From: Thermoguttaceae bacterium
GTDB lineage: Bacteria; Planctomycetota; Planctomycetia; Pirellulales; Thermoguttaceae
DNA: 49,046 nt
Reading direction: 5' to 3'
Assembly: GCA_029975295.1 (NCBI GenBank)
Contig: JARKPK010000029.1
Location: 1 to 49,046, forward strand
Under the pieces are notes generated by a model. The model was given only the letters and a program-made list of their open reading frames with translations, searched no databases and was not told the DNA's origin. A program made the translations under genes and the position numbers. Below are positions 28,579-48,753 of the stretch, one piece after another (position 1 is the stretch's first letter; the number at the start of each line of letters is the position of its first letter).

Positions 28579-28849
28579 GCGGCCGAATCTGGCACGCATC
28601 GCACGTATTTGCCCGTGTCTGCATGTCCGCCTGCCGGAGTATCCGCGCGCTGGCATGTTGCATGTCGCATCCCCCCGATTTGGCCTTGACATCGGCGATG
28701 CAGGCCGAGTATTCCATTGCTCCCCGAGATCGGGCAGAGACGCGGTTGGCCGGCTTCGCTCCCAATGGCAGACGTTGTTGGGCGCGTGTGGATGGCCGAC
28801 AGCGGCCGAAGATCATTTCTGTTTGGCGATTCGATTCGAGGGCGTGGCG

Positions 28850-32595: not shown

Positions 32596-33177
32596 ATGCT
32601 CGTCACGATCTTGTTGTTGGCGTTCCTGGCCGTTGCCGCCGGCACCGACCTCACCCGCCACAAGATCTACAACGCAACAACCTATCCCGGCATGTTGGCC
32701 GGTTTGTTGGTGCATGGGCTGGGCAGCGCATACGCGTTGGTTGCGCCCGAATCGGCGGAACCATTGGCCCACTGGGGTTGCGTGCCATTGCACGCGGCGT
32801 TGGCCGGGTGGGCGCTGTGCGGGTTCGTGATGGTGTTGTGCTACGTGCTCTTCCGCAAGGTGGGCGGGGGAGACGTGAAGTTGATGGCGATGATCGGCGC
32901 CTTGCTCGGCTACGAGCAGGGGCTGATGGTGATGTTGTGGACGTTCGTCTTCGGGGCCTGCGCCGGATTGATGGTTCTGGTGTGGCGCGTCGGGCCCTGG
33001 AGGCTCACGGTTCGAATCCTCCGGCAGATCAAGTTCGTCGCAAGGATTGGCGGCTGGGGCCCGCTGACCGACGAAGAGCGCGGGCAGCTTCAGGCCCCGC
33101 TCTTCCTCGCGCCGTGCGCCCTGCTGGCGGGCATCATGGTCCGATTCGAACTGGAACGTTTCGTGCCGCTTTTCTGA
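32596..33177 (+). CDS. Prepilin peptidase (CpaA/TadV, A24 family)
   Basis: Inner-membrane aspartic peptidase that removes prepilin leaders. It is 193 residues with several transmembrane segments. The two catalytic aspartates are D18 in AAGTDLTRHKIYN and D93 in GGGDVKLMAMIGAL; the GGGD motif is the family hallmark. It lacks the N-terminal methyltransferase domain found in PilD, as expected for TadV/CpaA. It follows the two pilins and precedes the pseudopilin genes. The ATG at 32596 has no strong ribosome-binding site but begins the first membrane helix. Confidence 0.93.
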   Translation: MLVTILLLAFLAVAAGTDLTRHKIYNATTYPGMLAGLLVHGLGSAYALVAPESAEPLAHWGCVPLHAALAGWALCGFVMVLCYVLFRKVGGGDVKLMAMIGALLGYEQGLMVMLWTFVFGACAGLMVLVWRVGPWRLTVRILRQIKFVARIGGWGPLTDEERGQLQAPLFLAPCALLAGIMVRFELERFVPLF

Positions 33178-33340
33178 CGGCGGCTGGCGTGGAATAATTA
33201 CTTGGGCGGGGATAAAACGATCGGTGCGTCGCCTTGCCGGCGGGGCATCGGTTGGCGCGGGCCGGTTGAAGGTTCTCGACAGGCGGGTTCCTTGTCTGCC
33301 GGCCGCATTGGGCGCTTGGGCAAACCAGGAGCGCGGCACC

Positions 33341-34339
33341 ATGGCCCGAGCTATTCTCTCGGCGTTGTTTCCCTGGACGCTCTTGCTGCTGGCGGCGGTG
33401 GTTCTTTGCTGCCTGTTGGCCCGCTTCATGCATGCGCGGTTCGAGCCGCTCCGCGCGCTGAGGCTGCATCGCGATCAACGCGGGGCCGTGCAAAGCCTGA
33501 GCTTCGTGCTCACGCTGCCGCTGCTGGTCATGTTCCTGATGTTCATCGTGCAGGTGAGCCAGTTGATGATCGGCGTGGTGGTTGTTCACTATGCCGCCTA
33601 CGCCGCCGCCCGGACCGCCACGGTGTGGATCCCCGCCTACGTGTCCGACATCGAAAATGAGAACGGCGTGACGGGCTACTACGTCGATCCCGACGCGCAG
33701 CAGGATTTGCCCGTCATCGACCCGAACGATCCGGGCTACGGCCCCAGCGCCGGCGGAATGACGTTGGTGATCGAACCGGGCGGACAGAAGTACGAAAAGA
33801 TTCGCTCGGCCGCCATCTTAGCCTGCATGCCGATCTGCCCGTCGCGAGATTTGGCCGCGGGCGGCCCGGTGGCCGGACACATGATCGACTCGGCGGCGTT
33901 GCGCACGGCCTATGAGGCCCTGGCCCCTTCGTCGCGGTCGAACACGCGAACCGGGCCGCGGCTGGAAAACAAATTGGCTTATGCGGCGGCCAACACGCAA
34001 ATCGAGTTGCGCTTCTACCACAAGAACGCCGAGCCGCCGTTGTGGTGGGGCTATGTCGATCCGAACGAAACCGATCCGGCCGTCCAGCAGGTGCTGCAAC
34101 ACGGCTACAACGAAATCGGTTGGCAAGATCAATTGCAGATCACCATTCGGCACAATTTGGCCCTGCTGCCCGGCCCGGGCCGGCTGCTCTCGTACTTCGT
34201 GCCGAACGCCCGCGGCGAAGACCGGTTGAGCAGCCGCATCGGGCACAACGGCCAAGTCTATGTTTATCCGCTCACGGCATCGTGCGTGATCGGCAACGAA
34301 GGGCTCAAACCGCTGGTGCGTTATGTCTATCAGCCGTAA
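33341..34339 (+). CDS. TadE-like pseudopilin membrane protein
   Basis: 332 residues. Two N-terminal hydrophobic segments: AILSALFPWTLLLLAAVVLCCLLA, then after HRDQRGAVQ a second (SLSFVLTLPLLVMFLMFIVQVSQLMI). The RGAVQSL boundary preceding the helix is like the TadE/TadG prepilin motif. A periplasmic part rich in Tyr, Asp and Pro follows (VIDPNDPGYGP). AGGAG precedes the ATG at 33341. The 3-prime end overlaps the next gene by 17 bases, implying translational coupling. It probably acts as a minor pilin or assembly-priming subunit of the Tad pilus; this is inferred from family and context. Confidence 0.82.
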   Translation: MARAILSALFPWTLLLLAAVVLCCLLARFMHARFEPLRALRLHRDQRGAVQSLSFVLTLPLLVMFLMFIVQVSQLMIGVVVVHYAAYAAARTATVWIPAYVSDIENENGVTGYYVDPDAQQDLPVIDPNDPGYGPSAGGMTLVIEPGGQKYEKIRSAAILACMPICPSRDLAAGGPVAGHMIDSAALRTAYEALAPSSRSNTRTGPRLENKLAYAAANTQIELRFYHKNAEPPLWWGYVDPNETDPAVQQVLQHGYNEIGWQDQLQITIRHNLALLPGPGRLLSYFVPNARGEDRLSSRIGHNGQVYVYPLTASCVIGNEGLKPLVRYVYQP

Positions 34340-35792
34340 CCGCCCCTGGGGCATCGCGCGTCGTTTCCGTCCGCTTTGGCGGCGGGTGTGCGCGCGGCTG
34401 TCGCGACTGCCTGCCGACAGCCGCGGGGCCATCAGTTTGGTGGCGGTGTTCGCCGTGATGCTGCTGACGATGCTTCTGGGCATGGTGATGAACGTCGGCC
34501 GCCAAGCCGACGGAAAAATGCGGATGCAGAACGCGGCCGACGCCGTGGCGTACTCGGGCGGGGTCGCGTTGACGCGGGGCATGAACACGCTGGCCTACAC
34601 CAACCATCTGCTGTGCGAAGTGTTCGCCATGACGGCGATCATGCGCGAGGGGCGCGACGCCAACGCCTCGGCGCGCATTCCGGAAATCGTCGCCGCCTGG
34701 AAGCGCGAGGCGCCCGAGTTCGCCTCCGCTCCGATGGACAAGTTCCGGGTGCTGGCCTCGGCCATCCCGCCGAAGGTGGACGCCGAACAACAAATGGTCG
34801 ACGCCTACGCCGCCTGGATCGCTGCGCTGAGCGACGCCACGCTGCCGATCTTCGAGATGATCTTGGCCGAAGAACTGATCCCGAAGTATCAGCGGGCCGT
34901 CGCCGCCATCTTTCCCGAGATCGCGCAGATGGCGGCCATCGAGATCGCCGCGCGGAACGGGCGGCCCGATCACGGACGCGGACCAATGATCGGCGTGCTG
35001 TGGCGCACCGACGTGGTGCCCGTCGGGCTCGATGAGACCTATCAGCCCACCTTGCCGGTGGTCGATCCGCAGATGGCCCCCGATCCCGACTATCGCACCC
35101 TCGCCCGAAGGCAGCGCAACAACTTGGCGATGACCTACCTGAACACGTGGAACGGCATCAACATGGCCGGGTTCGACCGCGTGGCCACGTTGACGCAGTT
35201 CGGCCAACTCTGGCGGTCGTTCACCTGCGGGCAGCTTCGCAAGTTGCTCGACGAAGAGTATCCCGAGACGAATCTCGTCTATCAGATCCATCGCGAGGCG
35301 CGCTCGCCCTATTTCCAAGACCGCTTCATGTTCGTCGGCGTGGTCTATTGGCGCAAGCTGCCCGACATGATGCCCGGCGTGTTCCGCGCGCCGCTGGCGT
35401 CGGACGCGGTAACCTACGCCCAAGTGCGCATGTTCGTGCCCGCGCCGAAGTTGCAGTGGCAGCACGAAAGTCAAGGCGGGGGCGGCAATCCCGGCATTTC
35501 GCTGGGCGGCGTGCCCGGCCATTCGGCGATGCTGGTGCCCGACGAGCCGGCCGACCCGACGGCCAATCCCGGCGGTCCGGGCCGCTGGGTGGTTCGCTAT
35601 GAACCGGTTCCCACCCATTGGGATTTGCTCAATCAGCATTGGACGTGCCAGTTGGTTCCGGCCGTCGGCCCGAACCTCTCGATGATCTTGGGCACCAGCC
35701 CGCCGATCGCCGAGTTCGGCGCGGCCAACCTGCGTTTGCCCAATACGGCCGCCCTAGACGACCGCATGATCACCAACATCAGCCCGCACTGA
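34323..35792 (+). CDS. TadG-like pilus-assembly protein
   Basis: 489 residues with a single N-terminal membrane helix preceded by a basic segment and SRGAISLVAVFAVMLLTMLLGMVMNVGRQ, the arrangement typical of TadE/TadG proteins. NVGRQADGKMRMQNAADAVAYSGGVAL follows; the NAADAAA-like motif after the helix is a TadG hallmark. The large periplasmic domain has no recognised fold (no von Willebrand domain seen, unlike many TadG). It overlaps the preceding gene by 17 bases and is 12 bases upstream of the next, so all three are one unit. Role: envelope anchoring or priming of the pilus, from family knowledge. Confidence 0.85.
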   Translation: MSISRNRPWGIARRFRPLWRRVCARLSRLPADSRGAISLVAVFAVMLLTMLLGMVMNVGRQADGKMRMQNAADAVAYSGGVALTRGMNTLAYTNHLLCEVFAMTAIMREGRDANASARIPEIVAAWKREAPEFASAPMDKFRVLASAIPPKVDAEQQMVDAYAAWIAALSDATLPIFEMILAEELIPKYQRAVAAIFPEIAQMAAIEIAARNGRPDHGRGPMIGVLWRTDVVPVGLDETYQPTLPVVDPQMAPDPDYRTLARRQRNNLAMTYLNTWNGINMAGFDRVATLTQFGQLWRSFTCGQLRKLLDEEYPETNLVYQIHREARSPYFQDRFMFVGVVYWRKLPDMMPGVFRAPLASDAVTYAQVRMFVPAPKLQWQHESQGGGGNPGISLGGVPGHSAMLVPDEPADPTANPGGPGRWVVRYEPVPTHWDLLNQHWTCQLVPAVGPNLSMILGTSPPIAEFGAANLRLPNTAALDDRMITNISPH

Positions 35793-35804: not shown

Positions 35805-36782
35805 ATGAACGCGATGTTTCGCTGGAAGCACGAACGTCGGCGCGGCTTGGCTCCGCTGGAGCTGGTGCTGGCGCTGCCGATTCTGTTGATGATCATGGCG
35901 CTGATGGTCAACTACGGCACGATGGCCGCTTGGAAACTGCGCGGACACACGGCGGCCCGCTATGCGGCCTTTAGCGCCCGCTGGCCGCGCACCGGCCATA
36001 CCGACCCGCGGCCCGCCTACTGGCCCGGCGCGATGGGCGTCGAAGCGGCGGGCAACATTGCGCGGCTCGACGATCAGCGGGTGTACCATCCGGTGGCGCG
36101 CGGGCCGTTGGCCTCGGGCGTGCAGGTGAACTCCGATCTGCTCGACCCCAGCCGAGGGCTTCGACGGGGCAGCGCGGGACTGACTCGCGGATACCCGATG
36201 ATGGGCAAGATGGGTTCGTACCATCTCTCGGCCGAGGTGTATTTTCTCGACAACATGTGGCAGTATCAGCGATTCGGACTGAGCGGGAACGTTCACCTGC
36301 GCATCCCGACGATTTACACCTTCACCCAAATCATGCCGCTGCACGACAGCTACTTGACGGCGGCCCGCGACAACTACTTCCAGCAGTACAGCGTGCCGGC
36401 CGCCGGGCGCTACGCGCAGCTTTCGGCATTGCTTGGGCCCGACGTCGATTCGGTCAATTGGGGCTGGCTGGCCGGGTATCAGCTTTCCAGTTTCGTCCCC
36501 GGTTTGCGGCGTTTTTGCACGCTGGACCAGACGACTGCCGACAATTCGGTGACCAATCTTGTCGAGCGGATCGAGGGCAGCGATTCGCCGTGGCGCGCCG
36601 GAGTGGCCGACCGGATGACCCGCGGCTTCTACCGTTTCTACCGCGCCGTGATTCGCGGGGCCCAAAACTATGTTCCGCCGTTGCCCAACGCACAGTCGAT
36701 CATCGACATGATGCAGTCGAAGGCCGACCAAATGGATCAGTTCTGGGACAACAGCCTCAACCCGGGGCGTCCCGGCCCATGA
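35805..36782 (+). CDS. TadE-like pseudopilin protein
   Basis: 325 residues. Basic leader MNAMFRWKHERRRG then LAPLELVLALPILLMIMALMVNYGTMAAW, a prepilin-like site with glutamate at mature +5 and a hydrophobic helix. RGHTAARYAAFSARWP follows, as in TadE-type proteins. The rest is a periplasmic domain rich in Arg and Tyr with no known family. A second ATG at 35814 is possible. The last four bases (ATGA) overlap the start of the next gene. This is the third pseudopilin-type protein in the locus. Confidence 0.8.
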   Translation: MNAMFRWKHERRRGLAPLELVLALPILLMIMALMVNYGTMAAWKLRGHTAARYAAFSARWPRTGHTDPRPAYWPGAMGVEAAGNIARLDDQRVYHPVARGPLASGVQVNSDLLDPSRGLRRGSAGLTRGYPMMGKMGSYHLSAEVYFLDNMWQYQRFGLSGNVHLRIPTIYTFTQIMPLHDSYLTAARDNYFQQYSVPAAGRYAQLSALLGPDVDSVNWGWLAGYQLSSFVPGLRRFCTLDQTTADNSVTNLVERIEGSDSPWRAGVADRMTRGFYRFYRAVIRGAQNYVPPLPNAQSIIDMMQSKADQMDQFWDNSLNPGRPGP

Positions 36783-37723
36783 GCAGCGCGAAGGTCGATT
36801 CGCAGAGCCCTCGGACAACCGACCAAGGCGTGCCCGGTCCCGCCCAACGCTTGGCTTCGTGGACCACGCGACTGCTGCTGTGTGGGCTGATTGCAGCGGT
36901 GGGGCTGGGCTTCGGACGGCAAGTGCTCCAGTGGTGGGCTCCCGAAGGCGATTCGGCCCCGGTCGAGCCGCCCGCCCAAGGCTCGCCGTCGCCGGACGAC
37001 GCCGACGACCGGCAGATGGTTTCCGTCGGGGCGGGCCCTTGGCGGCTGCGCCGCGAGTTGGTCGCCGGGCCGCGCGAGCAGGTGGCCGCCGTCTTGGTGC
37101 GGCGCGCGGTGGAAATCACCTCCGCCGCTTCGTTGCCGCCATCGCCTCCGCAAGCCGCCGAGAAGGCGCTGCTGGCCCGCGCTGCAACCATTCCGCTCGA
37201 CGCCGGTCCGCAAGGCGCCAATTGGCGCGTGGTGCCGGTCGATCTCGGCGTGCCTGCCGCGGTGGGGCTGAAATGGCCCGACAATCGCCCGGCAGCCGAG
37301 GGCGTCAACCTTGCCCAGACCGATGCCCGCGTGGTAACTTGGGGATTGGCGGTTCCGGCCGACGAATCGGCCTGGGCCGTTTACTGCGTGTTTTCGGAAC
37401 AGACGACCACCGACCCGGCCGGCCCGGCGCCCGAGCTGCCCTTGCCGCCCGAGGCGCGGCGCACGCTGGCCTTGGGCACCGTCGGCGGCGGCGCAATGGT
37501 GGGGTTTGAAGGACGGATCGACCCAGCCGCATGCCAACGGTTCTTCCAACAGTGGTTTTCGCAGAACGGCTGGACGTGCGTCGGAACGTGGCGAACCGCC
37601 GACGGCGGTTGGTTCGCGCGCTTTGAGAAGAGTTCTTCGCGCGACTCGGCGGTTGTCGATGTTCGCGTCGGCCTCGATGCGCAGCGGCAGTTGCAGGGGC
37701 TGCTCGTTCTGTCGCGGCATTGA
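36779..37723 (+). CDS. Membrane-anchored hypothetical protein of the Tad locus
   Basis: 314 residues. One N-terminal helix (TRLLLCGLIAAVGLGFGRQVLQWW) follows a short cytoplasmic part. A Pro/Asp-rich linker leads to an alpha/beta domain (WRLRRELVAGPREQVAAVLVRRA, GLAVPADESAWAVYCVF). It ends with a beta-rich segment (GWTCVGTWRTADGGWFARFEK). No known family is recognised. The start ATG overlaps the preceding stop (ATGA), a coupling signal, and CpaB follows 65 bases later. Probably a periplasm-facing accessory of the pilus machine, inferred from position only. Confidence 0.72.
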   Translation: MSSAKVDSQSPRTTDQGVPGPAQRLASWTTRLLLCGLIAAVGLGFGRQVLQWWAPEGDSAPVEPPAQGSPSPDDADDRQMVSVGAGPWRLRRELVAGPREQVAAVLVRRAVEITSAASLPPSPPQAAEKALLARAATIPLDAGPQGANWRVVPVDLGVPAAVGLKWPDNRPAAEGVNLAQTDARVVTWGLAVPADESAWAVYCVFSEQTTTDPAGPAPELPLPPEARRTLALGTVGGGAMVGFEGRIDPAACQRFFQQWFSQNGWTCVGTWRTADGGWFARFEKSSSRDSAVVDVRVGLDAQRQLQGLLVLSRH

Positions 37724-37788
37724 CCTCCGCGCGGAACGACCGCCGACAGTCGGTACACAACACCATCTTTTCTCTTTGCGGAACGGCC

Positions 37789-38577
37789 ATGAAGGGTATC
37801 TACGGTTTAGGCGTGGCGTTGGCGTTGGGCATTGCCGGGGCGCTGTTCAACTACGTGTATCTTACCAGCAAGTTGAAGGACGTCGAAAAGGTGGCCTTCA
37901 TCGGGATTCCGGAGAATGTTGTGATTCAGCGGGGCGAGAAGATCCGCGAGGAGCATCTTTGCCCCATCGAGATTCCCACCGCCTGGGTCGGCTCGCTGGC
38001 CGACGTGGCCGACCGCTGGGAGCTGCGCAACACGGTGGTGGTCAACAAGCCGGTGACGCGCACCCTGGCCGGCCAACGAATCCTGTTGCGCGACGACTAT
38101 CGCCCCGCGCCCGAGGAAGTGCTTGTGCTGGGCGAAGGCGAAAAGGCCCGGTTCGTGGCCGTCGACACGCGAACGTTCGTACCAGCGCTGTTGTCGCCGG
38201 GCGACCGTGTTTCGTTCATCGTGCCGAAGTTCATCGGTCCGCAGCCGGCTCGAACAGTCGCGCCGGCGCCGCCGGCGTCGGAAAACGACGGCGACCTCGA
38301 CCCGATCGCCGCGGCCCAGCCCAAACCGGCCGGCTCCGACGACGTGCTCGGCCCGTTCACCGTCTTGGCCGTCGGCAATCGCTTGGCCAGCGCCGAAGTG
38401 TGGAGGGCGAATCGCATTCCGCAAACCCAAGAGAACGTGTTGACCATTCGCGTGAGCAAGAATGTGCCGAACGAAGTGCAACGGGCCGACGAGCTTTTCC
38501 GCCGTTTGCAGGCGATCGAGTATCGCCCGGTGGGCATTGAAATCGAGAAACAAAGCCGTCTGCAAACAACACCGTAG
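37789..38577 (+). CDS. cpaB: CpaB/RcpC-type Flp pilus assembly protein
   Basis: 262 residues. An N-terminal helix (GIYGLGVALALGIAGALFNYVYL) is followed by a SAF-like region (VVIQRGEKIREEHLCPIEIP, NTVVVNKPVTRTLAGQRIL). The CpaB motif region LLSPGDRVSFIVPKF follows, then a Pro-rich linker and a beta-rich C-terminus (GPFTVLAVGNRLASAE, VLTIRVSKNV). CpaB/RcpC is a periplasmic protein linked to the outer-membrane secretin of Tad systems, yet no secretin is encoded here. The ATG at 37789 is used because the helix begins there; only a weak ribosome-binding site is seen. It lies just before the ATPase gene. Confidence 0.85.
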   Translation: MKGIYGLGVALALGIAGALFNYVYLTSKLKDVEKVAFIGIPENVVIQRGEKIREEHLCPIEIPTAWVGSLADVADRWELRNTVVVNKPVTRTLAGQRILLRDDYRPAPEEVLVLGEGEKARFVAVDTRTFVPALLSPGDRVSFIVPKFIGPQPARTVAPAPPASENDGDLDPIAAAQPKPAGSDDVLGPFTVLAVGNRLASAEVWRANRIPQTQENVLTIRVSKNVPNEVQRADELFRRLQAIEYRPVGIEIEKQSRLQTTP

Positions 38578-38715
38578 GGCTCGCGTTGGCTCGCCAGGGG
38601 CGGCGCCGCCCGCGCCCGGCGCTGCCCGGCCCGCCCGCGCAGCCGGTCGGCTGCACTGAGCGACCGCCGATTTTTTGTGCCGCAAACGACACGCCCCCAG
38701 AAGAATCGACCGACG

Positions 38716-40662
38716 ATGAAGATTTGGTTCAACAAGATCAACGAAAGCCGCCGCACGATGATCGAAGTGCCCGATGGCGAAATCACCATCGGGCGCGACC
38801 CGGCCAACGTCGTCTGCCTGCAAAGCCCGCTGGTTTCGCGGGTTCATGCGGTGGTCCGGCCCAGCGGCGGCAAGTTGATGCTGGAGAACGTCGGGCTGAA
38901 TAGCTGCGCGGTGGGCGACGAAGAGGTGCTCGGCGGACAGTCGGCTGTTTTCGAGCCGGGCACGAAGGTGCGCATCTGGCCCTTCACCCTGACGTTCGAG
39001 GCGGAAAAGGCGGCCGTGGTCACCCGCGCCGAGTTGGAAAGCCATCTCCGCGCGATCCTGGCCGATCTCGAACTCCGCATCCACCGCAAGCTGCTCGAAC
39101 GGCTCGACCTTTACGAGTTCGAGACCAATCGGGCCAACGACCCGCAAAGCATTCTGCTCCTGGAAAACAACATCGAAGACGTCACCCGCGAGCTCCGCCT
39201 GTTCGAGTTGGAAAACGAGCCGGTGCTGGAAGAGATTTCGGGCCTGGTGCTGCGCGACTTTCTGATCAACCAATTGATCATGGAGACGAACGCCGAGGAG
39301 TACTTCGACCTGGCCGTGCTCACCAGCAACGAGTTCGACGTACCCGCCACGCTGGTTCCCGAGCGCGAGGCCGAATTGCACAGCCTGCTGTCCTTCCTCC
39401 GCGAACGATTGCGGCTGACCGAATGCCGCGACATCAGCCAGCAGGTGCATCGCGTAGAAGAACGATTCAACGACGTGTTCCATCTGGTCCGGCCGCATCT
39501 GCACCGCGAGCTGCGCAAGTATTTGATCCTCCGCACGCTGAAGAAGGACTTGAAAGACACCATTTTCGGCTTCGGCCCGCTGCAAGATTTGCTCCGCGCG
39601 CCGACGATCACCGAAATCATGGTGGTCGCCAGCGATCAGATTTACGTGGAGCAGGCGGGGTTGATCGAGAAGTCGGGCCGCCGCTTCATCTCCGATAAAG
39701 TGACCGAAGCGATCATCGAGCGGATCGTGGCGCAGGTGGGCCGGCGGATCGACAAGAGCCAACCGCTGGTCGATGCCCGACTGCCCGACGGCTCGCGCGT
39801 CAACGCCGTCATCCCCCCGCTGGCCGTCAAAGGGCCCACGCTCACCATTCGCAAATTTCCCGCACAGCGGCTCACGATGGACGACTTGGTGGAAATGGGC
39901 AGCATCAGCAAGGCGGCGGCCACCTTCCTCCGCGCCTGCGTGATCGCCCGGCGGAACATCCTCGTCAGCGGCGGCACCGGCACGGGCAAAACCACCATGC
40001 TCAACGTCTTGAGCAGCTTCATCCCCTTCAAGGAACGCATCATCACCATCGAAGACACCACCGAGCTGCGGCTGCACCAAGAGCACGTGGTGACGATGGA
40101 AACCAAACCGGCCAATATCGAAGGGGCGGGCGAATACACGATCCGCGACCTGGTGAAGAACTCGCTCCGCATGCGGCCCGACCGTGTGATCGTCGGCGAA
40201 TGCCGCGGCGGCGAGGCGCTGGACATGATCCAAGCGATGAACACCGGCCACGACGGCTCGATGACCACCGTCCACGCCAACAACGCCCGCGAGGTGATCG
40301 AACGGTTGGAAGTGCTGATTCTCATGGCGGCCGATTTGCCCGTTTCCTCGATCCACCGCCAAATCGCCTCGGCCATCGACTTGGTTGTGCACATCAGCCG
40401 CTTGCCCGGCGGACGCCGAGCCGTGACCCAAGTGACCGAGGTCGTCCGCTACGACCCCGACGAAAAGCAGATCATCATGCTCGACATTTTCAACTTCCGC
40501 AACGGCCTTTCGTTGCGGCCGACCGGCTACCTGCCCTCGTTCATCGATCATTTGATCGAGAAGGACCTGCTCGACGTGGAGTTCCTTTACGGGCGCGAAG
40601 ACGGGACGGATGCCCTAGCCGACCAACGCAAGCCGGAAAGCGCCCGCGCCTTGCCGCGATGA
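38716..40662 (+). CDS. cpaF: Tad pilus assembly ATPase (CpaF/TadA) with N-terminal FHA domain
   Basis: 648-residue secretion ATPase powering Flp pilus assembly; CpaF alone is about 450-480 residues. The first 100 residues are an FHA domain with intact phosphothreonine-binding signature: G26-R27 (IGRDPANVV), S41-R42 and H44 (VSRVHAVV), then LENVGLNSCAV. A helical linker (about 100-280) precedes the ATPase. The ATPase has Walker A GGTGTGKTT with K425, an Asp box (IITIEDTTELRL), RPDRVIVGECRGGEALDMIQAMNTGHDGS (Walker B and His box) and the family segment RLPDGSRVNAVIPP. TadB follows after 40 bases. The FHA domain suggests that a phosphorylated partner regulates the ATPase; a kinase gene lies 3.3 kb downstream. 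Confidence 0.94.
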   Translation: MKIWFNKINESRRTMIEVPDGEITIGRDPANVVCLQSPLVSRVHAVVRPSGGKLMLENVGLNSCAVGDEEVLGGQSAVFEPGTKVRIWPFTLTFEAEKAAVVTRAELESHLRAILADLELRIHRKLLERLDLYEFETNRANDPQSILLLENNIEDVTRELRLFELENEPVLEEISGLVLRDFLINQLIMETNAEEYFDLAVLTSNEFDVPATLVPEREAELHSLLSFLRERLRLTECRDISQQVHRVEERFNDVFHLVRPHLHRELRKYLILRTLKKDLKDTIFGFGPLQDLLRAPTITEIMVVASDQIYVEQAGLIEKSGRRFISDKVTEAIIERIVAQVGRRIDKSQPLVDARLPDGSRVNAVIPPLAVKGPTLTIRKFPAQRLTMDDLVEMGSISKAAATFLRACVIARRNILVSGGTGTGKTTMLNVLSSFIPFKERIITIEDTTELRLHQEHVVTMETKPANIEGAGEYTIRDLVKNSLRMRPDRVIVGECRGGEALDMIQAMNTGHDGSMTTVHANNAREVIERLEVLILMAADLPVSSIHRQIASAIDLVVHISRLPGGRRAVTQVTEVVRYDPDEKQIIMLDIFNFRNGLSLRPTGYLPSFIDHLIEKDLLDVEFLYGREDGTDALADQRKPESARALPR

Positions 40663-40702: not shown

Positions 40703-41569
40703 ATGCCCAGCGCAACGGTTCCCATGGACTTTGAAGGCTACTTGGCATGTTTGTTGATCGGCGCGGCCGCGGGCGCGGCCGGGTTTTTCGGCCGCGAGTA
40801 CCTCGCTCACGGCATGAGCCTCGTCGAAGCCGATTTGACGGACAAGCTCCGCCGGCTTCGGGCGCCGACCAGCCATCTTCGCGTCTATATCGGCATCTGG
40901 TTGGCGGCGATCGGCGGCACGTTGGCGCTGTTCGCCTTCGCGCTGAACAACATCGTTTTCGCCCTGCTGATCTCGGCGTTCCTCGTCTGCACGCCGTGGT
41001 ATTTGGTTCGCCGCATGGCCGAGCGCCGCCGGCTGAAGATTGAAGACCAATTGGCCGACGCGATGGTCACCATGTCCAGCGCGGTCAAGGCCGGCTTGTC
41101 GCTGGCCCAGTCGCTCGAATTGCTGGCCTCGCAGCTCCCGCAGCCGATTAGCACCGAGTTCCAGCAGATGGCCTCGGAGTACAAACTGGGTAAAACTCTG
41201 GAGCGAGTGCTCGTTGAAGCGAAGGAGCGGCTGCGCAGCGAAAACTTCGCCCTGTTCGCCGCCGCATTGCTGGCCAGCCACGAAAGCGGCGGCCGGCTCA
41301 ACGAAACCGTAGAGCGCATCGCCCGAAGCGTGCTCGAACTGCAACGGTTGGAACGCAAGGTTCGCTCCGAAACCGCCCAGGCCCGCAAGTCCGCCGTCTA
41401 TATGGCCTTGGCCCCGGCGCTGATTCTGACCGCCTATTGGTTCGTCGATCCGATCAATACGGCCCTGCTGTTCACCACCGTGGTCGGGCAGATCCTGCTG
41501 GCGATTGCGTTGGTGCTCAATGTGATCGCTTACTTTTGGGCAAGGTGGATTTTGAACCCCGATATTTGA
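40703..41569 (+). CDS. tadB: Tad pilus inner-membrane platform protein TadB
   Basis: 288 residues, T2SSF family. An N-terminal membrane pair (FEGYLACLLIGAAAGAAGFFG and VYIGIWLAAIGGTLALFAFALNNIVFALLISAFLV) is followed by a cytoplasmic helical F domain (IEDQLADAMVTMSSAVKAGLSLAQSLELLA, SHESGGRLNETVERIA). C-terminal membrane helices end NVIAYFWARWILNPDI. The pattern AGLSL..SLE is the family signature. AAAGG precedes the ATG. It is paired with TadC downstream. Confidence 0.92.
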   Translation: MPSATVPMDFEGYLACLLIGAAAGAAGFFGREYLAHGMSLVEADLTDKLRRLRAPTSHLRVYIGIWLAAIGGTLALFAFALNNIVFALLISAFLVCTPWYLVRRMAERRRLKIEDQLADAMVTMSSAVKAGLSLAQSLELLASQLPQPISTEFQQMASEYKLGKTLERVLVEAKERLRSENFALFAAALLASHESGGRLNETVERIARSVLELQRLERKVRSETAQARKSAVYMALAPALILTAYWFVDPINTALLFTTVVGQILLAIALVLNVIAYFWARWILNPDI

Positions 41570-41626
41570 CCGCATCGGCCCGACAGGGCCGCTGCGCGGC
41601 GTCCGACGCAATTGAGATATCCCGCG

Positions 41627-42580
41627 ATGTTCACCGACTGCTTCCTCGCAACGTCATCGCTGTTCGCCGCCGGCATCGGGCTCGAGCTGTTCGCCAGCTT
41701 GGTGATGGGGTCGGCTCTGGGGCTGGTCGGCTGGTGGTTCTTCCAGATATTCCAGGTAGAGGAGCTTCAGCAAGGCGATCAGTGGCGCTACGACATCAGC
41801 CGGATCAACGAACTTCGCCGCGTCGATGCGATGTACCGCCTCTTTCAGCCCGCCATCCAATTGCTCGCCTTCATCAATCGCCGCGTCTTTCGCGACAGCC
41901 TGCCGGAAATCAACCGCGAGATTCAAGCGGCGGGCCTATCGCGATTTTGGATCGCTGAAGAGTACTTGGGCAAGGCCGAACTGATCGCTCTGTTTTGCAG
42001 CCCGATCTACCTTTACGTTCTGCTGGAAATGGTCGGGCCGGTCGGGTTCCTCTTTGCCGCGGCGGCGGTGGCGTTGACGGCTTGGTTCCTTCGCTACCGC
42101 CTGGCCATGCGCGCCCGCACCCGGTTGCGGCTGATCAAGCGGCGCATGCCCTTCTTGCTCGATTTGCTCACGCTGCTGATGGAGGCCGGCGCCACGTTTC
42201 TCAACGCCTTGCGTCAGGCCGTCGAGGAGTTTCGCGGGCATCCGGTGGCCGACGAGTTCGGCCGCGTGCTCAACGACATGAACATGGGCAAAACCCGCGC
42301 CGAAGCCTTCGCCGCCATGCGCGACCGGTTGGCCGACGACGAAATCACCAGCATCATCGGGTCGATCCTCCAAGGCGAACAGCTCGGCACGCCGCTGGCC
42401 AACATCTTCCGCACCCAAGCCGACGTGCTCCGGCTGAAGCGAACACAGCGTGCGGAAACGATCGCCGGCGAGGCGGGAGTGAACATGCTTCTGCCGGGCA
42501 TCTTGGTGATGATCTCTACGGTGCTGGTCATCATCGGCCCATTCATGTTGAACTACCTGAAATTCGGATGGACAATGTAA
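41627..42580 (+). CDS. tadC: Tad pilus inner-membrane platform protein TadC
   Basis: 317 residues from the ATG at 41627 (a TTG at 41612 is less likely). T2SSF family, partner of TadB. An N-terminal helix (FASLVMGSALGLVGWWFFQIF) leads to a central pair (IALFCSPIYLYVLLEMVGPVGFLF). The F domain is MPFLLDLLTLLMEAGATFLNALRQAVEE, with QGEQLGTPLANIFRTQADVLRLKR. A C-terminal helix ends NYLKFGWTM. Both TadB and TadC are complete, so the platform is intact. About 80 bases separate it from the next gene. Confidence 0.92.
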   Translation: MFTDCFLATSSLFAAGIGLELFASLVMGSALGLVGWWFFQIFQVEELQQGDQWRYDISRINELRRVDAMYRLFQPAIQLLAFINRRVFRDSLPEINREIQAAGLSRFWIAEEYLGKAELIALFCSPIYLYVLLEMVGPVGFLFAAAAVALTAWFLRYRLAMRARTRLRLIKRRMPFLLDLLTLLMEAGATFLNALRQAVEEFRGHPVADEFGRVLNDMNMGKTRAEAFAAMRDRLADDEITSIIGSILQGEQLGTPLANIFRTQADVLRLKRTQRAETIAGEAGVNMLLPGILVMISTVLVIIGPFMLNYLKFGWTM

Positions 42581-42659: not shown

Positions 42660-43877
42660 ATGGCACTGAAACTTGATTGCCCACGATGCAAGACGCCGCT
42701 GCTAGCGCCGGACAAGGTGGCTGGTTCGTACGCCCATTGTCCGGCCTGCCGTGGGCGGGTGTGGATTCCGCACAACGCCCCCAGCGTGCCCGAGGTCGTT
42801 GAACAGGTTGTAGCCGCCTCGATGGGCGCCGCGCCGGCGCCGCCGGCCCCCACGCCAACCAAGTCCGCCGCCGTGCTGCCGCCGCCGGCCCCGCCGGGTT
42901 GGACTCCTCCCCCGCCGGGCCAACCAGCGCCGGCCCCCGCAACGAACCCCGCGCCGGCAGCGCCGTTTCCGGCCGCACCTGCTGGTGTGGCCCCCTCGGC
43001 CGGGCTGCCCTCGCCGCCGATGCCGCCCTCGTCGCCGGGCCGCGTCCCGCCGGCCCCTTCGCCACCAGTCGGCGCGGCGGTTGCGCCGGTCGCCTCCATC
43101 CCCACTCCGTCGCATTCCGAACCCGTCGGCCGAGCCACACCGGCCGCCAGTCCGTCGGCAACACCGGCTCCCCCCGCGCGGCCTGCGTCGGCTCCGCCCT
43201 CGGCCCCGGCCCCGGCAGCAACCCAGCGAAGCCGAGGCGCGGCCCCGGCCGGTTCGTCCGCTGCCGCCGCCACCGGCGCGTTGGCTACCGCGGGCGCAGC
43301 GATGCCCGGGGGCGGGCCCGTGGTGCCTGCTGTGCCGCCGGGCAGTGCGGGGCCGGGCTTGGCGCCGTCGCGCACCGCCCGGCTGATCACCTCCGAAACC
43401 GCTCAATCGGCCCTGAAACTAGCGCCCGACGGCCGACTGCCCGAGTTGCACCTCGACGAAGACGAGACGAAGAAGAAGGCCGACGACGATCAGAGCGCGG
43501 CGATGAATCCTCTGGTTCTTTTTGGGCTGCTGACGCTGAGCGTGGCCATGTCGGTGGCAATGGTGCTGATCGACTGGGGCACGCCCACGACCAGCCGCGC
43601 CGAAGAGCGAGGCAAAGCCCGCGCCCTGATCGAAGAGAAGTTTTTCGGCGGCGGGTCGCTCGATCGCACCAAACCGCTCGAACCCTATCAGGAGTTGCTC
43701 CGCGATGCGCAGCGCGAGCATTTTCGCGGCAACCTCCGCAAAGAACGCGAGCTGTATCGCAGAGTGCTCGACATGATCCGCGCCGAACGCGGCGCCGGCG
43801 ATCGCGGGCTGACCGGAAGCCTGACGAACGACCGGCTCTTGGAGAGGCAGTTGCTCATCCTTCTGACCGAAGGTTGA
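42660..43877 (+). CDS. Zinc-ribbon, proline-rich, single-pass membrane protein
   Basis: 405 residues in four parts. An N-terminal zinc ribbon of C-x2-C type (LDCPRCKTPLLAP, then HCPACRGRVWIP) occupies residues 1-40. A proline/alanine-rich, probably disordered linker of about 190 residues follows. An acidic segment leads to one transmembrane helix (NPLVLFGLLTLSVAMSVAMVLI, about 284-305). A helical C-terminal part (EEKFFGGGSLDRTKPLEPYQELLRDAQREHFRGNLRKERELYRRVLDMIRA) resembles a single tetratricopeptide-like hairpin. No enzyme motif is seen. It sits between tadC and the kinase-caspase, with an 81-base gap to the latter. It may scaffold membrane complexes; the function is unknown. Confidence 0.75.
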   Translation: MALKLDCPRCKTPLLAPDKVAGSYAHCPACRGRVWIPHNAPSVPEVVEQVVAASMGAAPAPPAPTPTKSAAVLPPPAPPGWTPPPPGQPAPAPATNPAPAAPFPAAPAGVAPSAGLPSPPMPPSSPGRVPPAPSPPVGAAVAPVASIPTPSHSEPVGRATPAASPSATPAPPARPASAPPSAPAPAATQRSRGAAPAGSSAAAATGALATAGAAMPGGGPVVPAVPPGSAGPGLAPSRTARLITSETAQSALKLAPDGRLPELHLDEDETKKKADDDQSAAMNPLVLFGLLTLSVAMSVAMVLIDWGTPTTSRAEERGKARALIEEKFFGGGSLDRTKPLEPYQELLRDAQREHFRGNLRKERELYRRVLDMIRAERGAGDRGLTGSLTNDRLLERQLLILLTEG

Positions 43878-43958: not shown

Positions 43959-46900
43959 ATGTCCGCCGGTTCTCGCTACGAAGTTCTGGAACGCATCGCC
44001 GTGGGCGATTTCGCGTCGGTCTATCGCGCCCGCGATCGGGAACTGGGCCGCGAGGTGGCCATCAAACAGATTCACCCGCAATTCCTGCACGACGAACGCC
44101 AGTTGGCCCGCTACTGGCAAGAAGCGCAGTTGCTGGCCGGCTTGCAGCACCCGAACATCATGACCATCTACGACATCGTCCGTTCCCGCGGATGGCTGAT
44201 CGTGGAGTTGATGAGGGGCAATCTTGAACAACACACGCATGGAGAACCGATCGATCTGGAGTTGCTTCGCCAAGTGCTGAGCAGTTCGCTCAGCGCGCTC
44301 GATTTCCTCCACCGCAATGGGGTGATCCACGGCGACATCAAGCCCAGCAACATCCTCATCAACATGCAGGGGCAGATCAAACTGGGCGATTTCGGGCTCG
44401 CCCGGCGGGTGACCAACGACACGGGCAGCCTGCTCAAAGGCACCACGAAGTACATGGCGCCCGAGTTCGTCTCCAACCAGTTCGGTCCGGTCGGGCCGGC
44501 CAGCGACATCTATTCACTGGGCTTCTCCGCCTTCGAGTTGATGGTGGGGGCGAACCAGTTTGAAATGCTGTTCCCCGGGCTCAGTTCCTTCGGCCGCGAC
44601 AAGCAAATCGCCTGGATGATGTGGCACGCCGCCGCCGACCGCCAGTTGCCGGAAATCCATCGTGTGCTCGAAGGAGTGCCGCCCGACCTGGCCGCCGCCG
44701 TGCAGAAGATGACCTACAAGGATCCGGCGCGGCGCTACCCGTCGGCGGCGCACGCGCTGCGCGATCTGCGTTACGATCCGCTGGCGGCCCCGCCGGTGGT
44801 CGGCCCGTCGGAAGACCCGGCGGCGATGGCCGCAGCTGCCGCCGAGGCGCGCAAGAAGAAGCGGACCCGCTTGGCGGCGATTGGCGCGTTGGCTTTCTCG
44901 GTGCTGCTCTGCGTGTTCCTGCTTTGGCCGGCGGCTGAACCTCCGCTGCCGACGCAAAGCGAAGAACCGCTTAAGGGCGTCGTGGCCAACGTCTATCCCA
45001 ACGAGCTGCGGCTGGCCGTGCGCATCCAAGGCGAAAAAGGCGACAGCATCAAGGAAATCGAGCTGCGGCGCAATGATCGGGTGTTGATCAACGACAAGGT
45101 GCATGAATTCCGCGAATTGAAGGCGGACGACCGCGTCCTGATTCGCCCTCTGGTGGAGGACGGCCGCAAGATCCTCGAGCTCCGCGCCACCCGCCCGGTG
45201 ATGCACCGGGGCGTCGTCAAAGAGATCAAACCCGACGAAGGGCGGTTCGTTTTGGCCGTCAGCGAGGGCGAAGACCAAGGCAAAGACCTAGTGATCGACG
45301 TGCCGCCGGAACTGCAAATTCCGCTCAACGGCGGCAAGCCCGAAAGCGGCGGCCGAATGATCGCGCTGGTCGATCTGCACGTGGACGACCGGGTGAGCGT
45401 CGATCATTTGGGCTACGAGTCGGGCCGGCAGGCCACGGCCATCACCGCCCAGCGCGTCGTGGTGGTCGAGGGGAAGATCGCCGGCGTCGACGTGCGGCAG
45501 AAGCTCTTGGAAGTGGCCCTGGCCGACGGCGCAAACGTCGTCAAGCTGCCGTTCAAACCCGATTGCGAAGTGCTGATCAACAAACAGCGGCTGATCAACG
45601 ATCAGTTGCTCAAGCCCACCGACCTTCTGCCCGGCGATCAGGTGACGCTGGAACACGACGTAGCGGTGCTTCGCGTCAACGCCTATCGGATCATGGGCGA
45701 AGGCGGCGTGGTGCGCCGGATCAGCTATCCCGACCGATTGGTCGAGGTGGAACGCAGCGATGGCGGGCGAACCGTCAGTTATCAGGTCGGCCCGAACTGC
45801 GAAATCACCCTCGGCGGAGAATCCGTGGCGCTGGCCGACCTCCGCATTGGCGACCAGGTCGATATTACGCACGACACGCCCGGGGCGGCCATTCCGCGGG
45901 CGATCCGGCTTTCGGCCGTGCGACCGCCCGACGCCAACCGCTGGGCGATCCTCATCGCCAACCAGAACTACGAAAGCACCTATCTTACGCGGCTTTCGCA
46001 TCCGGTTTCCGACGCCCAGGCGCTGGCCAAAGTGCTCGTCGACCGCTACCGCGTGCCGCCGCAGCAGTGCGTCACCTTGTTCGATGAAAGCCTAGTGCGT
46101 CTCGAACAGGCGTTGCCCGACCGCCTGCGGCACATCGGCCCGGAGGCCTCGGTGCTGGTGTATTTCACCGGCCATGCCTACAAAGACGACGAAGGCAAAG
46201 TCTATCTGGCGCCGCGGAGCTTCGATTTCACCCGCATGGCGGCCACCGGACTGCCGCTGCAATGGCTGGTCGATCGGCTCGAAGAGTGCCAGGCGAAAAC
46301 CAAGCTTCTCTTCCTCGATTGCGGCCACCCGGGCGGCGGCAACGACCTGAAGGCCCAACCTTCGTCCGCCGAAATGCTCGCGGCCCTGCGCGCCCCGCCC
46401 GGCCGCGCTCCGTTGCGAACCATTACCGCCGTGGCCAGCGCCCAAGCCGGACAACGGGGATTGATCATTCCGGGCAAAGACGGAGGGCCGCCCCAGGGAT
46501 TGTTCGCGCGTCATTTGGCTCGGGCCTATCAGGGCGAGGCCGACAAGAATCTCGACAACGTGTTGGAGCCCACCGAGCTGTTCAGCTATCTCAACGAGGC
46601 GGTGCCGCGAGGCGCGCAGGAATTGGGCGGCGCGCAGGCGCCCGAACTCTTCCTGCCCGACAATCGGCCCCCGCGGCTCACCGACGACGCGAAGAAGGCC
46701 ATCCGCCGCTTGGCGGCGTTGGTCCGGCAAGAGCGGTTCGATCGCGACTTGGTCGCCCAGGCTTTCCTCGAAGCGTCGCAGGCGGCCGGACAAGAGATCG
46801 AGCCGAAGCTGATCCATGCCGTATTGCTGCTCCGCGGCAAACAACGCGACGACGCCCTGAAACAATGCGAAGAGATCAAATTGGAGCGCCCGGGGCTGAT

Positions 46901-47351
46901 CCTGCCGCAAATGGGCATCGTTTGGGTCCAGGTGGAAAAGCGCAGTTGGAAGTCGGCTGCCGACAATCTCACCGATCTGATCAAGCAGTTGCCGCGCCCG
47001 TCCAAACCCGGGCAGAAGCACTCCGCCGAGGCCTTGCAGGCGGCCGAGTGGGCCGGCGGACTCCGCGAATTCATCGAAAAAGGCAGCGACGTGAACGATC
47101 CGCGATTGCCCGCGGCGATTGCGGCGCTTGACGCCGCCGTGCAATCGCACCCGCCCGAGATCATCACGGCCTTCGAGCAGGGCCGCTCGAAAACCCGCAG
47201 CGTGCTCCGCGAGTTCGACCGCAAGATCGCCGCCGACGACGACAACGAGGCCCTGCGCCTCCGCGTCGAGCGGAAGCAGATCGGGCACTACTCTTCGTTC
47301 CCCTACGACGACTGCGTGCAACGCGTTCTCGACATGCTCGACACCGACTAG
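43959..47351 (+). CDS. Ser/Thr kinase fused to a caspase-like (peptidase C14) domain
   Basis: A 1130-residue protein. Residues 1-280: eukaryotic-type kinase with lysine K36 (VAIKQI), D126 in HGDIKPSN and D144 in GDFGLA. The activation segment has KGTTKYMAPEF. The glycine loop is altered (VGDFASVY) and the HRD arginine is glycine, so it is a non-RD type. A transmembrane helix follows near 305-325. Residues 340-639: four tandem beta repeats ending in D-x-V-x-I (DUF5666-like). Residues about 650-900: caspase-like fold starting RWAILIANQNY, with H739 (YFTGHAYKDDEGKVYLAPR) and C788 (LLFLDCGHPGG), 49 residues apart as in caspases. The C-terminus is helical, TPR-like. AAAGGA precedes the ATG. Membrane orientation suggests a cytoplasmic kinase and an outward peptidase part. 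Confidence 0.9.
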   Translation: MSAGSRYEVLERIAVGDFASVYRARDRELGREVAIKQIHPQFLHDERQLARYWQEAQLLAGLQHPNIMTIYDIVRSRGWLIVELMRGNLEQHTHGEPIDLELLRQVLSSSLSALDFLHRNGVIHGDIKPSNILINMQGQIKLGDFGLARRVTNDTGSLLKGTTKYMAPEFVSNQFGPVGPASDIYSLGFSAFELMVGANQFEMLFPGLSSFGRDKQIAWMMWHAAADRQLPEIHRVLEGVPPDLAAAVQKMTYKDPARRYPSAAHALRDLRYDPLAAPPVVGPSEDPAAMAAAAAEARKKKRTRLAAIGALAFSVLLCVFLLWPAAEPPLPTQSEEPLKGVVANVYPNELRLAVRIQGEKGDSIKEIELRRNDRVLINDKVHEFRELKADDRVLIRPLVEDGRKILELRATRPVMHRGVVKEIKPDEGRFVLAVSEGEDQGKDLVIDVPPELQIPLNGGKPESGGRMIALVDLHVDDRVSVDHLGYESGRQATAITAQRVVVVEGKIAGVDVRQKLLEVALADGANVVKLPFKPDCEVLINKQRLINDQLLKPTDLLPGDQVTLEHDVAVLRVNAYRIMGEGGVVRRISYPDRLVEVERSDGGRTVSYQVGPNCEITLGGESVALADLRIGDQVDITHDTPGAAIPRAIRLSAVRPPDANRWAILIANQNYESTYLTRLSHPVSDAQALAKVLVDRYRVPPQQCVTLFDESLVRLEQALPDRLRHIGPEASVLVYFTGHAYKDDEGKVYLAPRSFDFTRMAATGLPLQWLVDRLEECQAKTKLLFLDCGHPGGGNDLKAQPSSAEMLAALRAPPGRAPLRTITAVASAQAGQRGLIIPGKDGGPPQGLFARHLARAYQGEADKNLDNVLEPTELFSYLNEAVPRGAQELGGAQAPELFLPDNRPPRLTDDAKKAIRRLAALVRQERFDRDLVAQAFLEASQAAGQEIEPKLIHAVLLLRGKQRDDALKQCEEIKLERPGLILPQMGIVWVQVEKRSWKSAADNLTDLIKQLPRPSKPGQKHSAEALQAAEWAGGLREFIEKGSDVNDPRLPAAIAALDAAVQSHPPEIITAFEQGRSKTRSVLREFDRKIAADDDNEALRLRVERKQIGHYSSFPYDDCVQRVLDMLDTD
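44976..45875 (+). repeat. Four tandem beta repeats within the kinase-caspase gene
   Basis: Repeat starts lie at about residues 340, 418, 505 and 583, each about 65-87 residues. Shared pattern: G-x-V near the start, alternating hydrophobics, a short mid-repeat loop around I/L-x-I-N, then a D/L-x-x-x-D-x-V-x-I end (ADDRVLI, VDDRVSV, PGDQVTL, IGDQVDI). The pattern is seen directly; assignment to the DUF5666-like group is by recall of that family. Confidence 0.6.
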
Positions 47352-47581: not shown

Positions 47582-48592
47582 CTACGGACGCGGCATGGCG
47601 TAGTCGGCCGGCTTCAAGCCCGCCTTATGCTTGCCGAAACCGAACGGAAGCGGCTTGAACTCGCCGACCACCGCCACGTCGGCCCGCTGAGGAATCTTCT
47701 CTTCCAAACCGGCGGCCCAGTAGGTGGCGTTCACCAGCAGGCGTCGCACCCCTTCGCTTTCCAAATCGGTGGCCGCGCCCATCGTCGTGCAGAACGCCCG
47801 GCCCGTCTTTCCGCTTTTCTGGGCCGTGTAGCTCTTGGTCCAGGCAATCGGCATCATCGGGTCGTTCTTCGGCCCCTCCAGCGGCTTGTCGTCGGCCGAC
47901 ATCCCCACGAGCACCTGCCCAAGCACCAGCGGTTTGCTGTCGCCCGGCAGCGGCAATCGCACCGTGTAAACGTCGGTCGGTCCCCAAATGTCTTCGCAGC
48001 CGCGCACCAAGGGGCTCGTCTTGGCCTCCGGAGCGATCACCCCTCGCGTGCTTTCTTTGCCGTGTTTGCCGTGGTGATTGATCCAGGTTTCGCCCAACAC
48101 TTGGCGTCCGAACCCACCCTCCCACGTCTTGCTGTTGAAGCTCCAATCGGCGTACGTCGTGTTCTTCTTGAAGTTGAAGGCATGGGTGGCCGTTCGCAGC
48201 CCAATCACCGGCTTGCCCGCCTCCACGTAATCGACGATGTGCTTCATCTGCGCGTCAGGCAAGTCGCGAAACCGCGTAGCGATGATCATCACATCGGCTT
48301 GGGCCAAGTTCTCCAGCCCTGGTATGTTGTCGAGCACGGTCGGGTCGATCGTGCCGTCGGCCGGATTGATGGCGAACAGCACAGTACATTTGAACCCGTG
48401 CCGCAAGGCGAGAATCTTGCCGAGCTGGGGCAGGGCCTCCTCCGATCGGTACTCCTCGTCGCCGGATACCAGAACGACGTGCTTGCCCAGCGGCGCCGCG
48501 CCCGGCTCGTAAACCACCCAACGCTCATCGGCTGCGGCCATCGCCGCCAAACAGGCCGTCCACACAAAACCCGCCGTCAACGCTGTTCTCAT
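47582..48592 (-). CDS. Secreted ThuA-domain protein
   Basis: 336 residues. A signal peptide (MRTALTAGFVWTACLAAMAAADE) precedes a glutamine-amidotransferase-like fold of the ThuA (trehalose utilisation) family. Segments include KHVVLVSGDEEYRSEEALPQLGKIL, DVMIIATRFRDLPDAQMKHIVDYVEAGKPVIGLRTATHAF and GGFGRQVLGETWINHHG. GEFKPLPFGFGKHKAG stands at the C-terminus. The conserved GLRTATHAF and WINHHGKHG segments are those seen in planctomycete paralogues, which are often numerous. GGGAGG lies five bases before the ATG at 48592. The family's reaction is poorly defined; links to sugar degradation are family knowledge. It lies downstream of the truncated gene at the right edge, same strand. Confidence 0.9.
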   Translation of the reverse strand: MRTALTAGFVWTACLAAMAAADERWVVYEPGAAPLGKHVVLVSGDEEYRSEEALPQLGKILALRHGFKCTVLFAINPADGTIDPTVLDNIPGLENLAQADVMIIATRFRDLPDAQMKHIVDYVEAGKPVIGLRTATHAFNFKKNTTYADWSFNSKTWEGGFGRQVLGETWINHHGKHGKESTRGVIAPEAKTSPLVRGCEDIWGPTDVYTVRLPLPGDSKPLVLGQVLVGMSADDKPLEGPKNDPMMPIAWTKSYTAQKSGKTGRAFCTTMGAATDLESEGVRRLLVNATYWAAGLEEKIPQRADVAVVGEFKPLPFGFGKHKAGLKPADYAMPRP

Positions 48593-48753
48593 CGGAACCT
48601 CCCAACGATGCCTTAAGAAAAGAGAGCCCATCACGTTTTCGCTTTTGTCGCCCGAGACGCTCCCAACGCAACGGCAGCGGTATTCCACGGCCGCGGCCGT
48701 CGCCGACACGGCAGTTCGCGCCGCCGAATCGGCAGATCCTTGAGCCGCCGCGT

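Follow-up and report, generated by a model that had tools for sequence, protein, structure and literature searches.

The last gene of a Tad-like operon in a Thermoguttaceae bacterium of the Planctomycetota (NCBI GenBank assembly GCA_029975295.1, contig JARKPK010000029.1, positions 1 to 49,046 of the forward strand; this whole stretch of 49,046 nucleotides is the window below) encodes a 1130-aa protein in which a Hanks-type Ser/Thr kinase is joined, through one predicted transmembrane (TM) helix, to a large C-terminal part with a caspase fold. We lean towards viewing this protein as a receptor kinase that senses through a pseudo-caspase and would control the Tad-like machine through the FHA domain of its TadA motor ATPase. 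The open reading frame (ORF; 43959-47351, plus strand) is uninterrupted and has an ATG start with AGGA directly 5' of it. The following features are central; one of them, Cys788, had been proposed as catalytic in an earlier sequence-only reading of this DNA.

43959..47351, +: whole gene, 1130 aa, running from the kinase through the TM helix and four OB-like barrels to the pseudo-caspase and a TPR-like tail
43977..44756, +: Hanks-type Ser/Thr kinase domain, residues 7-266 (Pfam PF00069, E 1.3e-46; residue conservation)
within 43977..44756, +: kinase key residues K36, E55, HGD124-126, DFG144-146 and T162/T163
44871..44927, +: sole predicted TM helix, residues 305-323, N-side positive (hydropathy scan)
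44967..45923, +: four tandem beta units read as OB-like, residues 337-655 (AlphaFold2 (AF2) pLDDT 95.5; Pfam on 61 members; repeat scores)
45933..46658, +: caspase-fold domain, catalytically incomplete, residues 659-900 (Pfam PF00656; AF2 pLDDT 94.8; Foldseek/VIA)
46173..46175, +: His739, catalytic His column (alignments to caspases and MALT1)
46320..46322, +: Cys788, one residue ahead of the catalytic Cys column
46323..46325, +: Gly789, in the column where MALT1 and other planctomycete caspases have their catalytic Cys
46542..46577, +: EF-hand-like loop, residues 862-873, D..N..D......E (kept in 68/71 members; Pfam EF-hand_5 in 5/43)
46674..47348, +: all-helical TPR-like C-terminal region, residues 906-1130 (AF2)
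38677..40662, +: TadA/CpaF motor ATPase (T2SSE, E 1.9e-61) with N-terminal FHA at 38782-38976 (E 4.5e-8)

The same architecture recurs in planctomycete genomes as a conserved, mostly single-copy family with conserved neighbours. A search with the caspase part in 98 related genomes and the window's own gave hits of any kind in 56 of 99 genomes and 28 orthologues at E below 1e-40, and a scan of species genomes, from which the best 80 of 419 confirmed stretches were kept, yielded a set that overlaps with these 28 loci. The fusion is thus neither a one-off assembly nor a frameshift artefact, a doubt that had been raised from the window alone. Four of the orthologous loci (L041-L068) are cut inside the gene; a gene for a Zn-ribbon protein and/or TadC lies upstream in the other 24 of 24. 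In all 29 genomes searched, a single family match was present. Among 60 loci with >2.5 kb upstream, sorted into forms by length (the short class including contig-cut genes), TadC preceded the gene in 28 of the 37 long forms, in 2 of the 14 of middle length, which lack the tail, and in 7 of the 8 short ones, one locus being unclassed.

All 15 readable TadA rows, the window's included, show an unbroken FHA motif GR..SR.HA (a 16th row, L057, was empty), and the window's TadA has the N-terminal FHA with phospho-binding motif that defines class III CpaF. Across the 99 relatives, 28 genomes had both kinase and TadA, 4 the kinase only, 3 TadA only and 64 neither. Within a 392-genome sample of the phylum, kinase matches (P0001) at E<=1e-50 and TadA matches at E<=1e-180, cut-offs chosen after the lists were seen, selected an identical set of 13 genomes, 11 of which hold the family kinase. 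Kinases lying away from Tad genes, defined as lacking both TadC and the Zn-ribbon gene over the 2.2-10 kb upstream, were found in 22 genomes with one P0001 match each at E<=1e-60. In 20 of these, an FHA-bearing TadA (a match starting within the first 14 query residues) was present on another contig; in one of the remaining two the TadA match begins only at residue 94, and the other has an FHA-less TadA only.

The association extends to distant TadA loci. Of 18 distant loci with an FHA-type TadA, 14 have a Hanks kinase nearby, vs. 1 of 20 FHA-less ones (Fisher p 5e-6, a value overstated by the relatedness of the genomes). The 18 loci, on stretches of 11-20 kb, come from 16 genomes, with 4 from the window's family or order and 14 from 12 genomes labelled 'same phylum'; the 20 control loci (9-19 kb) were picked by the analyst from the genomes whose kinase lies away from Tad genes, and test and control loci come from different genomes. 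Pfam confirmed the kinase domain in 9 of 9 scanned distant neighbours, and distant FHAs and kinases outside this Pfam subset were judged by our own profiles. Nine of the ten distant kinases with a detected site read HRD and one HND. No caspase was hit in the distant TadA-linked kinases; their recognised ectodomains were FGE-sulfatase (L236, L241), TPR (L237, L240, L242), Ig-like (L237, L241) and PEGA/carboxypeptidase-regulatory-like (L245, L250), with none recognised in L248 and L252. Such varied ectodomains fit an exchangeable sensor. The kinases with FGE-sulfatase-type ectodomains near TadA lie at L236:2655-4895 and L241:13459-16779. A fold of this type occurs in TagR, an activator of the type VI secretion system (T6SS); FGE-sulfatase did not appear as a term among the literature matches listed.

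Hanks kinases are marked by a catalytic Lys, a Glu, HxD, DFG and PE, and the window's copy carries all of them. HGD, DFG and P168/E169 were each present in 71 of 71 members and E55 in 70, and the activation-loop pair T162 and T163 was kept in 69 and 68, respectively. The PknB/PASTA model of NCBIfam, NF033483, matched residues 4-272 (E 3e-56) with a score of 191 bits vs. a cut-off of 450. No Arg precedes the catalytic Asp in any of the 71 members, so the kinase is non-RD as the sequence-only reading had described it, and its unusual glycine loop was borne out as well, the central Gly being the one glycine left in the IAxGDFA stretch in most of 24 aligned rows. The suggestion of atypical regulation drawn from these traits fared less evenly: HGD does mark the family, but the Thr pair of the activation loop is retained. 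The 15 residues on the N-side of the TM helix are more net-positive than the 15 on the C-side in 61 of 74 proteins, which together with the single helix predicts a cytoplasmic kinase and a caspase fold outside the membrane, the topology envisaged earlier.

Structural models were built with AF2 from the sequences of the window and related loci. Together with Pfam and the hydropathy scan they confirm the earlier layout of kinase, membrane helix, beta repeats and caspase fold. The beta part had a mean pLDDT of 95.5, and its four units, at cut points chosen by the analyst, scored z 2.6-8.1 pairwise. Four units had been expected, as repeats of DUF5666 type; Pfam found DUF5666 in 28 of 61 members and CusF_Ec in 31 of 61, and neither in the window's own beta part, where only weak unrelated matches appeared. 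Strand order, along with fold and family matches, is the ground for reading the units as OB-like. Foldseek gave no single clear match to the beta region (best E 1.5e-7, at a TM-score of 0.2), and against CusF the TM-score was 0.72 across one unit. Peptidase_C14 (PF00656) matched residues 661-897 at E 5.2e-7, the caspase part and tail were modelled at a mean pLDDT of 94.8, and the caspase part compared with procaspase-6, metacaspase 4 and MALT1 at Z 20-22. Pfam, AF2 and structure comparison therefore agree on a caspase fold, as the sequence-only reading had anticipated for residues 640-900. Searched against the PDB as a single sequence, the caspase part matched no caspase; the family profile matched one. 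The best TPR models for the tail covered up to 9 of 43 members, with the window's copy not among them. Neither this tail, nor the EF-hand-like loop, nor the Tad-like operon had been mentioned in the earlier reading.

The proposed catalytic pair of His739 and Cys788 did not survive alignment. In five other planctomycete caspases (LDxCHAG, one of them VIDACHAG), the Cys aligns to position 789, which is Gly in the window, and the family profile aligned to MALT1 gives the same register, with the Cys of LLDMCRKR under 789 and the His of GHG under H739; these are the MALT1 residues that we take to be catalytic. As both comparisons put the Cys at 789, C788 is not the catalytic residue, whereas H739 is the correct His. 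Across 71 members the His is kept in 49, a Cys at 789 in 15 and both in 11; the C788 column is itself variable, with Cys in 24 and His plus C788 in 14. While 11 of 71 family members retain the pair, 37 of the 47 caspase hits from outside the family in related genomes do so (Fisher p 8e-12, with relatedness ignored), the comparison set being the usable caspase-domain hits from 45 analyst-picked loci, of which the caspase domains were compared and the further domains of the proteins left aside. On a quick kinase-domain tree, each dyad column changed at least 13 times. The window's caspase fold probably no longer cuts proteins, judging from these residues.

By the same tree, the caspase part itself is lost at least once in the family, because complete short forms nest among caspase-bearing kinases. 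Five complete forms of 649-650 aa (L139, L141, L143, L147, L148) end before the caspase part and follow Tad genes, and the caspase-less short forms make up one clade nested among caspase-bearing ones (support 93, with an open fork). Short matches were additionally seen in G185, G064 and G082. Some family matches are reported to contain internal stop codons, namely L155, L158 and stretches in G499, G497, G507, G508 and G511-G514.

Within this family, the kinase and the FHA stay the same and the ectodomain's enzyme residues vary, and the ectodomain is swapped across lineages; this pattern fits a receptor kinase that feeds a phosphothreonine reader. Modelled by analogy on PpkA-Fha of type VI secretion, the mechanism could run as follows. 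The N-terminal Hanks kinase would lie in the cytoplasm, joined by its one TM helix to the outer OB barrels, the non-cutting caspase fold and the TPR-like tail. A signal at the outer part, perhaps a ligand, Ca2+ via the EF-hand-like loop or a protein of the envelope or the pilus, would bring kinases together, and the gathered kinases would phosphorylate threonines, their own activation-loop T162/T163 first. These two residues are also the candidate docking sites for the FHA of the TadA motor, which would dock onto the kinase once phosphorylated, or onto some other protein, and, by this reading, switch the pilus or secretion activity of the motor. Sensing, phosphorylation, docking and the effect on the motor are all put forward here as predictions from the genes. 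More tentatively, and with the balance slightly against it, Tad machines of Planctomycetota may be phosphorylation-gated in general, most FHA-TadA loci having their own receptor kinase, whose core is preserved as the sensor is swapped between lineages, one of which turned a caspase from a peptidase into a sensor.

Several observations weigh against the receptor-kinase reading; linkage and co-occurrence do not prove that the FHA reads the kinase. K36 is replaced by Arg in 3 of 71 members, the window not among these. No Tad gene was upstream in 23 of the 80 scanned loci, and no gene was common to more than five of these 23 unlinked kinases within 6 kb. Among the 99 relatives, the kinase occurred without TadA in G022, G029, G036 and G046 (assemblies of 560-1420 contigs) and TadA without a P0001 match in G015, G065 and G072. 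In the phylum sample, two of the 13 selected genomes, G072 and G075, have kinases whose ectodomains differ from those of the family, and a weaker TadA (E 1e-129 to 1e-155) with no P0001 match was seen in another 13 genomes. Of the distant loci lacking a kinase, L239 and L246 are truncated by contig ends; the uncut L238 and L249 have TadA with no kinase in about 20 kb. The distant FHA domains are also altered: SRxH is kept in only 4 of 18 (L241, L245, L250, L251), its Ser is replaced by Ala or Asn in 8 of 18, L252 and L253 read SPxH, the TadAs of L236-L239 are without the FHA His, and 2 of 10 scanned by Pfam fell below its FHA threshold, with the domain found in the other 8. Phosphothreonine reading by these altered domains is doubtful, and the link at such loci may work without phosphothreonine. 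No phosphatase was seen, the sole PP2C_2 hit lying on contig C52 (other PP2C models were not searched). His and Cys are kept in 5 of the 44 members linked to Tad genes and in 6 of the remaining 27, in which peptidase activity is possible on the basis of these residues. FHA-like domains of TadA without the Ser and/or His of SRxH were noted in L236-L239, L240, L242-L244 and L246-L249.

Three other explanations were considered. The sequence-only reading had supposed that phosphorylation could be coupled to proteolysis, with an active outer caspase-like peptidase switched by the inner kinase or the reverse. Its attraction lies in the genuine caspase fold, in His739 with Cys788 close by, and in the members that hold both catalytic residues, such as L089, which reads DSCHSG. 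The Gly at the catalytic Cys column, the variable C788 column, the repeated changes at both dyad columns and the existence of members without a caspase part make it highly improbable, and we rejected the peptidase model on the catalytic register and the family-wide loss of the dyad. A cell-death or anti-phage defence kinase-caspase standing beside Tad genes by chance is a very slight prospect. Caspases have defence roles elsewhere, PADLOC kinase models of the MAD6 and PD-T4-6 types match the protein, and its best named caspase model is the EACC1-associated NF047832 of NCBIfam (residues 662-882, E 1.1e-22). That match amounts to 80.6 bits vs. a cut-off of 140, which gives no membership, and the catalytic Cys is absent; the PADLOC matches listed (25 of 35) all lie in residues 3-327, the kinase and linker, and we rejected a defence role on that coverage. 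The stable operon position in all 24 informative loci is a further point against it, as is the presence of just one P0001 match in each of 29 genomes.

A structural or assembly factor of the Tad system deserves more weight, though we consider it unlikely. Here, the ectodomain would scaffold, the kinase would act elsewhere, and the FHA would read another kinase or no phosphothreonine at all. Retention of a large ectodomain without enzyme residues suits this explanation, as do the 14 other kinase-like places in the genome and the frequent absence of the FHA Ser or His from distant TadAs. In G386, moreover, a different kinase (989-aa frame, L266:1411-4377) is found near the Tad operon and the family kinase is elsewhere (L267). 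The nearly invariant kinase residues and the concentration of kinases, with several unrelated ectodomains, at distant FHA-TadA loci as opposed to FHA-less ones argue instead for the receptor kinase acting through FHA-TadA.

The analogue on which the mechanism is modelled is described in the accessible text of two papers on T6SS (PMC3953482; PMC12133291), where the membrane Hanks kinase PpkA acts in a pathway in which an FHA protein reads phosphothreonine. The window's locus likewise combines a membrane Hanks kinase with an FHA partner, and it resembles PpkA-Fha1 (with PppA), as far as those texts go, in encoding them with an envelope machine. It differs in that the FHA is fused to the motor ATPase, in that the ectodomain consists of OB barrels and a pseudo-caspase, and in that the 18 products of the window that were scanned include no T6SS gene (no genome-wide search was made) and the contig no PP2C_2 gene. 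PASTA kinases are arranged as kinase, TM helix and repeated outer part. The family shares this arrangement with the PknB type, while OB barrels and a caspase fold replace PASTA and HGD replaces HRD.

On the motor side, class III CpaF/TadA proteins carry an N-terminal FHA and are mostly from betaproteobacteria, going by the accessible part of PMC12019362, whereas the present one is planctomycete. The Kil system of Myxococcus has FHA proteins and an FHA-fused ATPase, KilF, and an FHA signalling cascade has been proposed for it in the portion of PMC8460266 available; the word 'kinase' is absent from that paper's main text. FHA-TadA is thus common to class III CpaF, to KilF and to the window, on what these sources offer, and the linked kinase identified here sets the window apart. 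The finding ties a kinase gene to motors of this kind. If Tad machines of Planctomycetota are indeed phosphorylation-gated, theirs would be the type of kinase that Tad systems with an FHA, the proposed Kil cascade for one, have so far lacked. Pseudo-orthocaspases, caspase homologues with an altered His-Cys dyad, belong to Alphaproteobacteria and Cyanobacteria in 90% of cases according to the accessible text of PMC6426788; they resemble the present domain in being caspase folds without the dyad, and differ from it in that here the fold is part of a planctomycete kinase ectodomain with many dyad changes. A 2012 caspase survey, in its available part, gives a Cys-His pair conserved in 64% in Planctomycetes, and 'kinase' occurs twice in that text, figures aside, both times on Myxococcus. 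The main text of a planctomycete kinase survey makes no mention of caspase or pilus, and no description of a kinase-pseudo-caspase protein was found in the open-access literature among the matches listed. FHA-bearing CpaF and pseudo-orthocaspases are therefore known, and the linked kinase with a pseudo-caspase ectodomain in planctomycetes appears to be new, judged from sequence. A caspase fold that persists without its catalytic pair in a putative receptor-kinase family is also a caution that a fusion of kinase and caspase need not be a proteolytic switch.

The remaining operon genes precede the kinase gene on the same strand.

32596..33177, +: prepilin peptidase (Peptidase_A24)
33224..34339, +: TadE-like
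34323..35792, +: TadE/G-like (PF13400)
35805..36782, +: TadE-like (under Pfam's cut-off)
37720..38577, +: CpaB/RcpC-like (RcpC E 0.007, under Pfam's cut-off)
40703..41569, +: TadB-like (T2SSF; Pfam, TadB and TadC told apart by gene order)
41612..42580, +: TadC-like (T2SSF; assigned in the same way)
42660..43877, +: protein with N-terminal Zn-ribbon, Pro-rich linker, TM helix and C-terminal tail; conserved neighbour (Zn_ribbon_TFIIB under Pfam's cut-off; alignments)

The order is TadE/G, CpaB-like, TadA with FHA, TadB, TadC, Zn ribbon and kinase. TadA, two T2SSF genes, a prepilin peptidase and TadE/G-like genes thus stand together, in an order conserved in relatives. Neither a secretin (PF00263) nor a Flp pilin (PF04964) was hit on the window's contig (C152), where divergent versions are possible. 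A second Tad locus in the same genome (contig C103, 29360-39071) has a TadA in a 445-aa frame, a secretin and Flp pilins, and the window's system is therefore best called Tad-like. A plasmid search with TadA returned 799 records, 3 of them covering >=80% of the query. In the Zn-ribbon protein, T385 within GLTGS was kept in 21 of 21 rows; as an FHA target it was set aside, since the charge pattern weakly places it outside the membrane. Two large ORFs in or adjoining the operon (28292-30577 and 36257-37723) had no Pfam match, and the latter is conserved in the operon of relatives. Directly 3' of the kinase gene lies a convergent ThuA-like gene (47582-48820, minus strand).

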